A stretch of 64,000 nt of DNA from Setaria digitata. Taxonomy: Eukaryota; Nematoda; Chromadorea; Rhabditida; Setariidae. This document shows, piece by piece, positions 55,410 to 64,000 of this stretch (position 1 is the stretch's first letter; every line of letters starts with the position of its first letter). Location: positions 1 to 64,000 of the forward strand of contig RCAB01000272.1 of the NCBI GenBank assembly GCA_003640385.1, given 5' to 3'. The translations under genes were made by a program, and so were the position numbers. Under the pieces are notes generated by a model, which was given only the letters and a program-made list of their open reading frames with translations, searched no databases and was not told the origin of the DNA.

Positions 55410-58400
55410 ATGTTGTCATCTATGAGAAGAGTACAGTGTAGGCGATGGGATGATTTCGAATTGAGAAAATGGTTACGTCAACTTTCTGTACCAAGACGGG
55501 TCTCATTGACGGCTGTTTTCATCCTCTTTTCACTCTATTTCATTATATCTTCCTTCTTTTCCTCACCCTACATCTCTGAGTCCCAAAAATGTCTCAGTGA
55601 ACATCTGAATGCTTGGAAATACTTCGAAAACGATAATTTGGTTTCAATTTCCAACAAAAAATTTGGATTTACTGGTAATGGGTTAGTTCTGCAATTCATT
55701 AATCTTCCTTATCTGGACTTCTAGAGGCATTATTAATTCATGTGCTAACTTATAGCCTATTGGGTTGTACGAAGCAACATATTCACTTTGAATCCATTCA
55801 TTCAAAATTAGTATGACATTTATTACATCATAACAGTTTATAAGATCTTTTTGAGGTTCATCGGAATGGGTGGCGATGGAGAGTTGCGGCTAAAAACATC
55901 TCGAGTTTTATCAGCACGAAGTGCCTTTTCTCCTCTTATTGATGCGCAAATTCAAAATTCAGAATCTTTTGCAGAAAGTTATATAAATGATTACCGTGAT
56001 GGTACTATCACAGCTATACGATGTTATCGTATTGTACGTATTTCTAATCTTTAATTTTCACATTTCCTTCTTTCTTTCTGTTAATTTTCTTTTAAATATT
56101 GCATCTTTTTGGTTTTTTATTTAAGGAAGTTATTTTTAAAGATCTATGAAGTTAATGAGTATTTTCAATAATCTTTTACTGCAGAGCGATCAATGTATAT
56201 GTACTGCACAACGCGTTTATGCTCATCGAAGAAGACCGCATCTTTTAATCCAAGAACTTCAGGCGGCAAATCCATCGGTCTTTTTTCCGTTACTTTTAAA
56301 TGTAGCTCCACTGCAAACAAAGCAATTCCAGACATATATTTTCTGCGTAGTATCCATATTTTCAGTCCTTCTTTCAGGATAGCGATATCGAAATCGAACT
56401 CTCCGTAAAAATTTCGGAATATTGGACGCAAAGAAAGAGGTTTACGTTTTTGCATTATTAAACTCTGCAAGTATTACCGACTGCTGTTTAATGAGTAACA
56501 GGTCACTGCGTTGTGACATACGCCAGAGCACTGAAAAGTTTCCTTCGTATGCGAAATGATAGTATGGTACTCAACAGAAGAGCCACCACTGAAGACTTGG
56601 AAGCTGGATAAGTCAAGTTTTGATCAGGTAAACAGAATGGACAAATTGATCCTACGAAGGGTATTTATGAATAAACCCCTTCAAAATTTGTTATATGTTT
56701 CAGTAGCAGTGCAGCTGATCCAGTTTATACACGTCACTTTGAGTCTGATGGAGCACATACGTTAGTTGCTGCTGCATGTACGAAAATTCCTGAAACTATT
56801 ACGGTTGAACAGAAAAACGAAATCTTTTTACGCTTTCTTTGTCTCATCAATTATATTGCCGGAAAAAACGAAAATGATGAGTTAAGATTGCTGGGCGAAA
56901 GTGTTGCCAAGGTGTATTGTTTTTTATGCTCTCTGGCAAACGGGTTTTAAATTGATTGAAGTTTTGAGAAAGCTTAGGTATCTCTACCACTTCTCATCAG
57001 GTCTTTGTAACCTTTGATATGAGGTGCAAGTCAGGAATTTCTCAAGTATACAAAGGAAAGTAATACATATGTTGCTACACTCTTCTATTTTATGTTGAAG
57101 GTATTTCTCGGGTTTGGAAGATTTTAAAGTGAGTAACAATGAATGGAGGAACGAGTTTTAGCATGAGTATATGGTTACCAAATGTGGAGGATCGATAATT
57201 GTGAAGACCCATGTGGAAGATTAATTCACTTTTGGGAATGTTTTTTTTTCTTTTTCAGGAACTCACAGATTACAGCTTACTAGATAGAACCCTTCTGTAT
57301 CGCGAGCATTCAACGGCTTGGAATAAGGTACGATTACTATTTAACATAGAACTTTTTGTTTTAGTGGCTGGTGATTATATCCTTTTTCTAATTTATATGT
57401 ATTTTTAGTTAAATATGGTTACGTTTGGTATTTCAAAATCTCTAGCTCCAAATGCTTTGAATGCTGATCAAATAAATGCTACACGTTACGTGCTGCTATC
57501 AAATATGCGTGATCCACTGCTAGAAATTGGAGTTAGCAAAGAACAAAAGGAGGTAGATATCGTTAAGATTAAATCTGCACTTTTTCATGTATCTGTTTTA
57601 AGACATATTTATTTTCGGCAAATATGACCAGTAAATTCCAGGCGGGAGCAGCATCGATAAAGAAAATAGATATGTGTTACACAGGACATTCAACGCTTCT
57701 TGTACCCTCTCGTTTGTGGAGGAAATCTGATAATGTCAATGACATCATTGAAACAACGGACATCTGGTTATTAACTCTGGAGAAACGTGGATGTTCTGGA
57801 CTCCTAAAAGCTGGTGCTAGTGGCCTTGCCGAAGCGTTTGTTCTCAGTCTTCTTGCATCCAAGTAAACAGTTCGTGATCTTTTCTTTGTAGTTCTGCTGT
57901 GAAATATAAGTCTCAATAGGTTTTTCAACTAAATTATTCCTGTTTTCGCAGGTTTTCTCGTGAACATCTGGAAATAGACATTGATCCGGCTGATTTACTT
58001 CGAGAGATTACAGTTGGAAATTTGGCATATTCTCCTACCACGAAAGTTTCAATAAATGTTCGTTTAAGTACTGGTAATCGACCTTATTTCATGATCTCGT
58101 CCGACTCGCAGGTAAGATACTTTTTCATCGTTCTAATTACTTTTTTATATTTCTTTTTGACTAAGGATATCACAGTTTCGAAAGATTCTCACATGGTGGC
58201 TACCCTTTGAATGGGTAATCACTTACTCCTTTTTTGTTTTTGGACTTTTGTTTAGAAATTCCCAAACCGCTCATCTGTTTTGTTCGATTTTCAAATTTTA
58301 AGATTTTCGCTTGTGATGCAGCCTGCTTAAATCATCCAATAGCCGTCGGACGATCAAATATACATATTCCGGTTAAGGTAACTAAACCAGCTACTCCAAT

Positions 58401-59105
58401 TTTATATATTTCACACAACAAAAATCATCTCGAGCAACTGCGGGGGACAATACACGTTGTTGAGGTGATGCTTTTTCATGTTAAAGCCTAGTGTTGTTGG
58501 AGGAAGGAGATGAATTCCTAAAAATTTAGAATATTCAACATTGCTTAGCGTAGGATCTTTTTTTTTTTCTCTCCAGAGAATAAAATTGGTTATCTCAGCA
58601 CTCAAGATATCCCATACGCCTCTAGATCCAATGGGCTGCTAGTGTTTAATCTCTTCTATTCGGAACTGAGTATAAAGCAATGATCTGGATGCATATATAT
58701 TTTTTTAAATGCACGTTTTTTGCTGAATGCTTGATCGACCAGTGGAAGTCCAAAAGTGAAACTGTTTTGTAATTTATTCAAATGTGATTTTTGGCTAAAA
58801 ATTCTAAAAAGAAGAAAAAAAATTGATCATTTGTTGCTGAATGATAGTTTATAATACCCGTAGTATTATAAGAAACTTCTTTACTGCAGGTCATGGATGC
58901 TCCTGCTCATGAGCATGGACTAATTGCGCTTCATAAACATGGTCATCGTTTGGGTGGTCTCCCAATGATGTTTTGGATGATGCTTGGTGCTTTAGTAATT
59001 GTATTCCATTTATTCTTATTTAAGTTGCTTTATTCGGAGTGGCAAAAGGGGGACACAATGCCTTATAATTATTATTTACGACAGCGTTACATTCGCAGTC
59101 ACTGA
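55410..59105 (+). CDS. KIAA2013: KIAA2013-family membrane protein
   Basis: The family is a poorly studied metazoan endomembrane protein with one C-terminal membrane helix. Firm exons: 55410-55681 (signal or anchor V-F-I-L-F-S-L-Y-F-I-I-S-S-F-F), 55856-56033, 56185 to about 56277, 56704-56911, 57259-57327, 57409-57552, 57642-57862, 57952-58111, 58303-58464 and 58890-59105. Between 56277 and 56704 two more short exons are likely (S-D-I-E-I-E-L-S-V-K; W-Y-S-T-E-E-P-P), but I could not phase them. Matches to the human protein by eye: A-H-R-R-R-P-H, D-I-W-L-L-T-L-E-K-R-G-C-S-G-L, P-A-T-P-I-L-Y-I-S, and the final helix with F-H-L-F-L-F-K-L-L-Y-S-E. The tail is short and cytosolic. An ATG at 55422 is an alternative start. 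Molecular function is unknown. Confidence 0.85.
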
Positions 59106-59482: not shown

Positions 59483-60902
59483 TCACTGTTGCTCATTTCC
59501 AGCCTGTATCAAACGTACCCCAAGCGTTTCCCCCATGTCTTCCAAAGATTGCGTCACTGTTGACAAGTTTGCATTTGGAACTTGCTGCAAATATTTTGAA
59601 GTAGTTCCGAATAAATGCTAAGTTTTAAGTATTTAGATGCATTCACGCAACAAACCCTGAAATATTGCCGATTTATTAAGCTTCATTCCATTATAATAAA
59701 GGGCATGGTAGCGAAACTTCAGCTTTTGCGTTTCCTTGAACTATTTATTGAGTCACTTCCGAATGATCTTTAGATTTTCAGATTTCTCTCTACTTAAAAT
59801 ATATATAGGGAAAACCTTACTTCGTATTGATCAAGAAGCATCATGGTTGGTGAAGAGGAATCGTCTAAACAAACACGAATAAACTCTACCATATGCCCAC
59901 AACCGAGATGATCCGCTAGAATTGCCCATTTATCCTCTACATCTAATATCTTCGATAGTCGTAACCTCGTTAGGTAATCCAAACAGGAAACATCATCTGA
60001 AACTGAGAATTAAGGCTGTGTGCTTTATTCAGACAAAGTTGCTGTAAAAAAAATAACAGTTTATTTCTTATACGAATATCGCTCTGATAAGGATGTATGC
60101 ATAATTTGGTATCATCATTGTACAGATGGAAAGAAATATCCATTTTATTTTTGTTGCTCTGACCACAGGAATTATTATTTATTGTTACTTAGTTCTATTG
60201 TACAACAGTAAAGTTTTATGTGCCGCTTTACAGTTAACTGTTTGTCATGCATAATTTAGTCCAGCTATATAAGACTGGTGATATGTCCATCGTAGAAACA
60301 AGACAAGTTATGTATAGTAGTGTTGATGCTTTGAAAATTTATAAAATTCGGAAGAAGAAACAGAGAAATATGTAACCTTTGAGTGTACGAAGTCGATAAC
60401 TAGTTGCAGCATCGGTGCTTACAGCTGTACTACCCGATTCTTCACTTTGCGGTTCATTGGTTTCTTGTTCTTCGAGACCGTTTTGTGCAGCATATATATC
60501 AGGTAATTCAACGCGTTCGCCATTTAGAATCCGCTGTACATCTTCGTCATCTGCTTCTGCTGGTCGCCCATCACCTATATTACTATCGTTTTACCTCATG
60601 ACAAATTTTTCCTTTATTTATTATTATTATCCCTCAAGATGAACATAATCTTGCATATAACTTTAAGAGGCAGTTTAATAATGACAAAAAGATGTTGCAC
60701 TCTGAAAACCTGTTCCCAAAGAATCCATGGTTGATCCGGCATCCAGAAGGCGTCCGATCATTACAAGATTCTTTTTCTTACATGCAACTTTCAGAGGTGT
60801 ATCGCCATTATTCGATATTGCATTAAGATCACAGTCATGCTGCAAGTTTCATCATTAACAGCCAAAAAATTGATGATAAAAGTTATCCCTTTTCTTCTTT
60901 TT

Positions 60903-60942
<40 letters not shown>

Positions 60943-63900
60943 AACCACTTAGCAATATCAACAAAAAAAGAACCTGAGCAAGTAAAGAGACCGCATCAAC
61001 ATCATCCATATACAGAGCTGTCAATAAAGGTGTTTCACCGTTATTATCGGGAATATTCACAGGCGCACCCGCTTCTATTAATGCTTCTAACAAACTTAAT
61101 TTTAACTTCTTAACAGCAATATGAGCTGGCGTATAACCGGAGCAATTTTTTTTGGCTAAAATATTCTCTCTGTTGATATCAGTTCCATTTTCTACTTCCT
61201 CACTATTACTTGTTTCCAAAATTTCTTTATAAATTGCATCGTTATATACCTCTCCCAAATAATGCGCAACCTGAAAAATTAATTTTCCATTTGAAACTAG
61301 AAAAACATAAAATTATTTGCTTATTTTATCTTAGACTTTTCCTTTCCACAAGCTAGTATCATTGTGTATAATTTCGATCATTTTACACTAAGAAATAAGT
61401 AAGCGAAATAAATAAATACAATGTAATATGCTCTGTTGAAATTAAGCAATTACAAAGACTTCTTCTATACTGCTATAATTTAAATATTAGGAAAAAGAAA
61501 AAAAAAAAAGTCTACATTAAGTAGAATTATCTTCTATAAGAGTTGAAATTTTTAGTGTATTTCGACAAACTCAAAAAACTTACTGTATCCAAATTATTAT
61601 CAACAACATTTCTCTTGGCACCAGCACTAATTAGGTAATGCACACAGTCTGGATCACCGGCTCGTACCGCACAATGTAAAGCTGTTTGGCCTCGAACATT
61701 CGGCGCATTAAGGATTTTTTGACGGTCCATTTCATTGCTACATTGACATAAAACCGATAGCATTGTTTTTAGCGCAAAATTTTGTTTATTACGTGCTGCC
61801 ACGTGTAAGGCACTGAAGCTAATAATAATTACTCATCCTTCCATTAGCATATTCACATCATTACGTTGCTTCATTAAAAAAAAAAAAAAAAAAAGTTAAA
61901 ATTATTAAGACTGCTTTTAGTTATTGCTGTTGTGTTTTTAATGTTACTGAAATAGAATGGCATGTTATGGACAACATACCTGAATGAAATATACCTGTTT
62001 ATAGTTAGACAACTTACCTTTCTTTGCTTCTAGAACGAATTTTATAAAACAGCAAGCACTTTTGCGAACTTTTAACTAGCCTCTTTATATTTGTAAACAT
62101 ACAACGAGCAAGTTTTTAAAAAGAAAAGTTTTCTTTTTGAAGATTAGAAAAATTAATAGAGACTTGCAGCCGTCGTTATCAGATGTACCAAGAAGTGGTA
62201 CCAACGGTTTAACCAAAGATAACGGTTCTCCTTCAGCGGCAAATTCGAATAACGATGCTATTAGCGCTTCCTTATCAACAGCATCTGTTTTATCTGTGCT
62301 ACTCGTATCACTGAAGATATTATGAACACGATGATATTCATTTCCCGAAATGAATGAGCTAACCTTATCAAATCAAATATCACGGAGTGACCGGAAGTTC
62401 AATCTTAAAACAGAAAAGGATTCAGGTAATTGATAGATGTTAATGTAATTCCTTTATCTTTTCACACGTACTTTGACGTTTCACTAGAAGTAGCAAGTTT
62501 GCCATTCTTCTTCCTACCTCTCTGTTTTTTTTTTTTCTTTTGAAGTCAAAAATACAAAAAGAAAGGAGAAATTTGATTTGTATCTGGAAATAATAAACCA
62601 AATAATTATCACTAAACAGTTATCGCTTAGTAGATCAAATAATTATCACTAAACAGCTAATTATAATTAATTACTGACATGAAAATCAATAATATATTAC
62701 CTATATGAATTCCATCACTCAGTTCTCTGATTATTTAATTTCAGTGTACGAAGATTCCCAATACTATATTATAATGAGTTACAATAATGACTTCATATCA
62801 TATTCACATATCTATCATCAATGCATGATAAGACTAATCAATCACCTGACATGAAATTGTATTGGTAATTCTAATTGTTGTGGACCGTTTCGTAGAAATA
62901 TTTTGAAGCTATTTGTTACGGATATTGCTTTATCTGCTTGCTCCGGAATAATAAGAGGCGGTAAAGAAAATATAACTAGCTGAAAATGTTCATCTATTTT
63001 ACTTAAACTTTTCAAGTTCAATTCTTTCCTTTTTAAATACTATTTGAAAAATATTTTTTTACAAAAAATGCTTAATTAATTACTTTTTCTTATTCAAAAT
63101 TAACAATAATACAGTAAGATAACTCTTACCTTATCATAGATTTTCAATCGTTCAACAGGTAACATTCGATTACCAATATCAACAAATATACTAATATCAT
63201 TAATTGGTTTACTTAATAACAACCATATTGTTTCCTTAGTGTTTCGTATAATATTATGACTTACTTCAATTACTTGAAGCGGTCCTATAAAATCAATTAT
63301 TCATTGTTTTAGGGATTTAAAAGGAAAAAAAAAATTGATTGATTAATTTGAATATCTTGCTGCAAGAGTAAAACGATATACCATTATCACGATGCATAAT
63401 ATCAGAAACAATCACTGAAGAAGCAGAAGCTGTTGCTGCTTCAACGATTATTCGAATACTTTCCTCTTCTTCTGTCCACCTTTCATCAACTTTTTTCGTA
63501 CCACCACTGCACTGTTGATTTGCTTCAGCTGATTGGATCGATTCGTGTTGGCCTGTTTGTATCGGTTTTGTAATGTATAAATCTTCAAATCTGAAAATCA
63601 TCGCACTGGAATGATTAATACCTTTTGCTATGACTAACACACTGATCAATCGATAATGCTTCAGTGAAACCTCAAAGTTGAAGAAAAATTTCCAAAAAAA
63701 AAAATTCTTTAATGACTCATAACCTGATATGTTTGATACTTTACAAGCTAAACTCATCATCTGTCAGTGAAATCATCTAATTTTACCTTATGATATGTTA
63801 ATGAATTCATTGCCTAACTGACTGATAATATATTGTTTACGGTAATTATATCAAGCATCATTTGTATCGTATCAAATTACTCTAATCTCTTCACAAATTT

Positions 63901-64000
63901 CATTTAATTTCAGTTTACATGAATTCTATTTGTACCGCTCTGAACAGCATTAAAATCATATATTATCCAATATCTTAAAAATATTACTCCAACAAATGAT
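59483..64000 (-). CDS. NF-kappaB p100/p105-type protein: Rel/IPT, ankyrin repeats, death domain (5' end beyond window)
   Basis: In other animals such proteins are Rel factors held inactive by their own ankyrin repeats until processed. Exons, N to C: about 63690-63370 (end of the Rel N-terminal fold; F-E-D-L-Y-I-T-K, V-I-V-S-D-I-M-H-R-D-N); 63284-63130 and 62979-62846 (IPT fold; T-I-W-L-L-L-S-K-P-I-N-D-I-S-I-F like p50 E-I-Y-L-L-C-D-K-V-Q-K-D-D-I-Q-I, then L-V-I-F-S-L-P-P); about 62309-62160 (linker, E-G-E-P-L-S-L-V-K-P-L-V); ankyrin exons 61818-61584 (G-Q-T-A-L-H-C-A-V-R-A-G-D), 61270-60974 (N-N-G-E-T-P-L-L-T-A-L) and 60839-60710 (N-G-D-T-P-L-K-V-A-C); acidic 60574-60377 (A-E-A-D-D-E-D-V); death domain 59996-59821 (K-W-A-I-L-A-D-H-L-G-C-G, L-L-D-Q-Y-E) and 59584-59483 (L-E-D-M-G-E-T-L-G-V-R-L-I-Q-A, stop). 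The DNA-contacting Rel start is off the right edge. The linker-to-ankyrin junctions are approximate. Confidence 0.8.
60903..60937. repeat. Poly-T tract
   Basis: About 35 T, lightly interrupted, in an intron of the NF-kappaB-like gene between two ankyrin exons. Confidence 0.9.
62599..62656. repeat. 21-bp direct repeat
   Basis: CAAATAATTATCACTAAACAG occurs in near-tandem, with copies starting at 62599 and 62636, in an intron of the NF-kappaB-like gene. Confidence 0.85.

Follow-up and report, generated by a model that had tools for sequence, protein, structure and literature searches.

Nematodes have been described as lacking NF-kappaB (PMC6072134), its pathway appears to have been largely lost in nematodes such as Caenorhabditis elegans (PMC8391683), and a 2024 survey has Nematoda without p50/p105 proteins (PMC11432056), as stated in the accessible parts of these papers. 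Work on C. elegans regards IKB-1 as an IkB of an animal that has no NF-kappaB, and notes a debate over whether nematodes lost NF-kappaB or branched off before it arose (PMC7527347; accessible part, here and below). Here we describe the counterpart of this gene at the end of a 64,000-nucleotide stretch of the Setaria digitata genome (the window, bases 1-64000 of an 86784-base contig). Judged by its sequence, the gene is the filarial orthologue of ikb-1. We consider it probable that ikb-1 is itself a reduced NF-kappaB p105-type gene, which has kept its IPT, ankyrin and death domains.

In C. elegans, IKB-1 is found in a subset of cells, for the most part in the cytoplasm, and muscle is the main site of its expression. 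It binds to histones and parts of PRC2 in vitro, associates with chromatin in vivo and shows no binding to mammalian p50 or p65 (PMC7527347). The same authors found the persistence of an IkB without NF-kappaB surprising, since free IkBalpha is unstable. Their description lists ankyrin repeats along with putative SUMO sites and mentions neither an IPT nor a death domain, and the terms 'death domain' and 'Rel homology' do not occur in the main text. Relish homologues have been reported in Priapulus caudatus and P. varius (PMC7056985, accessible part), and an IkBepsilon-like Trichinella record has been noted (PMC3553144, accessible part). No statement that IKB-1 is a relic of p105 was found in the open-access literature searched, subscription papers lying mostly outside that scope.

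Orthology and domains of the Setaria protein

The Setaria gene lies on the minus strand at contig positions 64461..59483. Its 11 exons all have GT/AG borders and join in frame. The corrected model encodes 667 residues identical to S. digitata A0A915PMW4 (P0001; source name, death domain-containing protein). The initial annotation of the window had proposed a spliced minus-strand gene running from a Rel-type fold through a linker, ankyrin repeats and an acidic segment to a death domain, and this order is borne out. Searching the genome (75.6 Mb, 976 contigs) with A0A915PMW4 returned 16 matches, 11 at the ikb-1 locus and five weak matches to ankyrin repeats. A preliminary 689-residue model was discarded for wrong acceptors at exons 4 and 6, as shown against A0A915PMW4; that model, or pieces of it, had been used in one early Pfam search, in the PDB search with residues 1-261 and in the homology search with residues 1-300.

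The last of these searches gave 11 proteins at E<=0.001. When 7991 candidates were scored in an alignment search, 61 reached E<=1e-20; the first 27 form the nematode family, and the other 34 (bacteria, algae, other animals and records without a source name) were read as generic ankyrin proteins. The Haemonchus death domain matched 33 sequences, and all 23 with a source name were nematodes. Orthologues carry the names BMA-IKB-1, IKB-1 (Trichostrongylus), ikb-1 (Pristionchus) and CBR-IKB-1; others are called 'p105 subunit' (Ascaris) or 'NF-kappa-B subunit' (Dirofilaria), and names such as that in Ascaris hint at a p105 relic. A midpoint-rooted tree of 22 sequences split the rhabditids (100/100) from a group of spirurines, ascarids and allies, with seven of its 19 inner branches unresolved. 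The family was found throughout the chromadorean nematodes reached, including Pristionchus and many Caenorhabditis species (named congeners rather than the C. elegans record itself). The gene was thus not kept here while being lost in C. elegans, as had been supposed.

The two C-terminal domains are clear. The ankyrin repeats match Pfam Ank_2 at 2.2e-30, are structurally closest to those of IkBalpha/beta and stand, as repeats of the IkB type, C-terminal to the IPT domain, as in the NF-kappaB class. Rows listed by Foldseek (full model) and by one VIA structure comparison fell within the ankyrin part, as far as their ranges were given. The death domain (residues 588-662) matches Pfam Death at E 7.2e-8, above its cut-off. 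Among PDB sequences it is closest to p105 (2.1e-5) and p100 (4.2e-4), the next true death domain being that of MyD88 (0.56). The last two exons encode this p105/p100-like death domain to its end, as initially annotated. The family profile of this domain was less clear than the Setaria sequence, with UNC5B a close third. Other death-domain exons of the genome lie at C491:14479-14799 and C549:4778-4933; contig C491 also carries ankyrin matches and possibly holds an ankyrin gene.

The IPT domain is of Rel type at the level of the family, by profile search and by fold. A profile built from the N-terminal domains of 13 rhabditid proteins (A8, with four rows, P0019, P0068, P0072 and P0079, from records without a source name, and with Pristionchus, all spirurines and the ascarids left out) was compared with all PDB sequences, and all 28 matches were NF-kappaB/Rel dimerisation domains (best E 8.4e-4). 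HHalign related Caenorhabditis-type IPT domains to Rel at 92%, and 40 of the 50 rows of a further VIA comparison were NF-kappaB or NFAT. The Setaria domain is tied to Rel by its orthology to the rhabditid proteins and by a modest structural match, and its own sequence carries no Rel signal. The first 261 residues of the preliminary model had no PDB match, seven spirurine IPT domains scored 11.3 against Rel in HHalign (shuffle mean 11.2), and a mixed IPT profile (A3) found nothing in the PDB. The best 50 Foldseek rows for the N-terminal model were mostly glycosidases with a few Ig-like or other beta domains, at poor TM-scores. The proposal that these exons follow vertebrate p50 strand by strand is not confirmed by the Setaria and spirurine sequences alone. 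From the 26-row alignment A4, P0013 (Ascaris) and the odd gene models P0069 and P0082 were excluded from the HHalign comparison of IPT domains with Rel and from the joint alignment described below; the N-terminal alignment A7 held 21 of 23 pieces (P0064 and P0079 dropped), most rhabditid pieces being trimmed by a few residues. The Ascaris suum protein F1KWT2 (P0013) has an insertion of about 85 residues in the IPT-like domain, ahead of the last strands, which suggests that constraint is relaxed on that side.

Gene structure, N-terminal region and missing features

The exons and the parts of the protein that they encode are as follows (minus strand throughout).

Exon 1, contig 64235-64461, minus: residues 1-75; N-terminal region, beyond the window.
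Exon 2, 63382..63590, minus: residues 76-145; N-terminal region (splice sites, frame, predicted beta strands).
Exon 3, 63130..63284, minus: residues 146-197; first half of the IPT domain, of Rel dimerisation type (gene model, HHalign, profile, structure).
Exon 4, 62846..62979, minus: residues 198-241; second half of the IPT domain (gene model, HHalign, profile, structure).
Exon 5, 62164..62310, minus: residues 242-290; short linker, then start of the ankyrin domain.
Exon 6, 61584..61812, minus: residues 291-367; ankyrin repeats (Pfam, structure comparison).
Exon 7, 60974..61270, minus: residues 368-466; ankyrin repeats (Pfam, structure comparison).
Exon 8, 60710..60839, minus: residues 467-509; ankyrin repeat region (Pfam, structure comparison).
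Exon 9, 60377..60574, minus: residues 510-575; end of the ankyrin domain and acidic low-confidence linker.
Exon 10, 59821..59996, minus: residues 576-634; first part of the death domain (Pfam Death; p105 best PDB match).
Exon 11, 59483..59584, minus: residues 635-667 and stop; end of the death domain, the protein ending right after it.

Exon 1 falls past the end of the window. Its first codon is a conserved Met, and a stop in the same frame stands 11 codons ahead of this ATG. The Rel recognition loop that was to be looked for beyond position 64000 is absent there. The neighbouring gene on the upstream side, also on the minus strand, encodes a Brix domain and ends at contig position 65914, about 1.45 kb from exon 1; it spans 65914 to about 68000 of this contig (C193), just outside the window, and is presumably IMP4-like. 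Its position leaves no space in which a standard Rel DNA-binding domain could have gone unseen, barring exons past the Brix gene or within the 1.45 kb. Downstream, exons of a DUF2152 (PF10222) gene lie on the plus strand (window 57573-57866 and 58872-59105), tail to tail with ikb-1. On the minus strand, 56165-56473 holds one open frame (102 codons), in which a Met close to the 5' end may be the start.

Exons 1 and 2 encode about 145 residues that occupy the place of the DNA-binding half (RHD-N) of the Rel homology domain (RHD). They were seen here only in spirurines, rhabditid ikb-1 proteins having just a short N-terminus before the IPT domain. Of the seven spirurine proteins aligned, six conserve the region, and the exception is a Brugia protein whose gene model differs; identity between Setaria and four spirurine relatives is 50-88%, and beta strands are predicted. 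By eye, one stretch resembles the part of the RHD around 'LVTKDxPHRPHPH', and another further on resembles 'FxNLGI'. HHalign aligned the spirurine N-terminus with RHD-N over 105 columns in this same register with a score of 17.8, which is not significant (four of 60 shuffles scored as high), and a joint alignment of RHD-N and IPT gained nothing (24.09, against a mean of 24.08 with the N-terminal part shuffled). Seven VIA rows (7, 8, 11, 12, 13, 22 and 40) span both domains of whole Rel/NFAT chains, at root-mean-square deviations of 10-13 A. This suggests, as a lead short of significance, that exons 1 and 2 are a degenerate DNA-binding half.

Simple motif patterns were scanned in 24 of the 52 family proteins (P0001-P0027, P0062-P0086). 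None had the RFRY of the recognition loop (one stray CEG occurs in P0077), a glycine-rich processing region (at most six Gly in 30) or a basic cluster acting as a nuclear localisation signal (NLS) right after the IPT domain; some Caenorhabditis-type proteins have basic clusters between the ankyrin and death domains. The IKK degron DSGxxS was absent from 22 of the 24, and D/ESGxxS occurs in P0067 (residue 592) and P0068 (residue 346), in neither case N-terminally. The Rel DNA-binding domain PF00554 gave no Pfam match in the family proteins searched. At genome level, PF00554 had no match at E<=1 and PF16179 none, both weak negatives since 14 control genomes gave no match either; a search for a p65-like exon found none at E<=10, with no genome known to match as a control. 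The single genomic match to the DNA pattern for RFRYxCEG (RFSYRCEG, contig C437) lies outside the listed open frames of at least 30 residues and was set aside as chance. The exon-by-exon genome search was of limited reach: it found a Runt control and missed ikb-1's own death domain, which is split over two exons.

Descent of ikb-1

As a reduced p105-type gene, ikb-1 would no longer have a working DNA-binding domain, and the glycine-rich processing region, the IKK degron and the NLS that follows the IPT domain would have been lost as well; the spirurine N-terminal residues are possibly a collapsed remnant of the lost half. As it does in p105/p100, the ankyrin domain would pack on the IPT domain, either within one chain or between sister chains. 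Such a clamp, in cis or in a homodimer, may keep IKB-1 stable without an NF-kappaB partner, and the death domain presumably recruits death-domain signalling proteins. IKB-1 would then be a cytoplasmic and chromatin scaffold, not a sequence-specific transcription factor. A scaffold derived from NF-kappaB fits better than the self-inhibited NF-kappaB signalling put forward initially, which is unlikely because the glycine-rich region, the NLS after the IPT domain and the IKK degron were not found. The related suggestion of a full p105-type gene holds in part: p105-type descent is the best reading, and the gene is not full, having no recognisable DNA-binding half and no recognition loop.

The published view is that IKB-1 descends from the IkB/BCL3 type, and the IPT-like and death domains would then have been added later or have arisen by convergence. 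TreeFam places C. elegans IKB-1 near IkBalpha/beta and BLASTP matches it to BCL3 (PMC7527347); in structure, its ankyrin domain comes nearest to IkBalpha/beta. Also telling against p105 descent, Pfam RHD_dimer (PF16179) was found in none of 13 family proteins, 13 pieces and a further set of 10; of the Pfam domains proposed for checking, Ank and Death were significant, and RHD_dimer and RHD_DNA_bind were not found. The Rel link is nevertheless rescued by the profile search of the whole PDB, in which all 28 matches were Rel. IkB/BCL3 descent further needs two independent gains that reproduce the exact p105/p100 order, with a p105/p100-like death domain, and we judge it unlikely. Considerably less probable is that IKB-1 forms dimers with, or inhibits, some other Rel protein that has so far escaped notice in the worm. 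The conserved IPT domain and IkB-type ankyrin repeats would suit such a role, but the exon-by-exon search, within its reach, found no PF00554 match, p65-like exon or true RFRYxCEG in the genome. Least probable, and largely refuted, is a full working p105, processed to a DNA-binding p50-like factor, with its missing exons further upstream: the domain order and the Ascaris and Dirofilaria annotations are in its favour, whereas the conserved Met after an in-frame stop, the nearby Brix-domain gene on the same strand and the failure to find RHD_DNA_bind, the recognition loop, the glycine-rich region or the NLS count against it.

If ikb-1 is a p105 relic, the ancestor had NF-kappaB, selection preserved the other parts of the gene while the DNA-binding half was lost, and the chromatin role is what remains of an NF-kappaB gene. 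A bolder version is offered tentatively: in Chromadorea NF-kappaB may have been beheaded rather than lost, ikb-1 being the surviving p105, in which the ankyrin domain clamps the protein's own Rel dimerisation domain, and spirurines may retain what is left of the DNA-binding half, collapsed and without its loop. If true, this would explain a conserved and stable IkB without NF-kappaB and its indifference to mammalian p50 and p65, and the ikb-1 family would record the steps from a master transcription factor to a scaffold or chromatin regulator.

Comparison with known systems

C. elegans NFKI-1, set beside IKB-1 by description, is the other nematode IkB-like protein and is encoded by a separate gene. 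It belongs to the interleukin-17 (IL-17) pathway and binds MALT-1, a contact published for NFKI-1 and not for IKB-1 in the accessible part of the source; the first 374 residues of NFKI-1 attach to the death domain of MALT-1 (PMC7190641).

Nematode IKB-1 proteins (C. elegans ikb-1, BMA-IKB-1, CBR-IKB-1) share the Setaria order of IPT-like domain, ankyrin repeats and death domain. The Setaria protein is 32-39% identical to rhabditid IKB-1 and 69-85% identical to the aligned spirurine proteins, and spirurine IKB-1 differs from the rhabditid form by its roughly 145 extra N-terminal residues. IkBalpha, IkBbeta and BCL3 have, to our knowledge, neither an IPT nor a death domain, and the DSGxxS degron of this group was not found in ikb-1 (22 of 24 proteins). 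Unlike p105, p100 and Relish, the ikb-1 proteins scanned have no recognisable DNA-binding domain, recognition loop, glycine-rich region, NLS or C-terminal IKK degron. The Setaria linker between the IPT and ankyrin domains, at about 15 residues, is also much shorter than that of p105, at roughly 180. Vertebrate NF-kappaB1 p105 and NF-kappaB2 p100 and insect Relish have the IPT and IkB-type ankyrin domains in the same order as Setaria, and p105 and p100 share its death domain as well.
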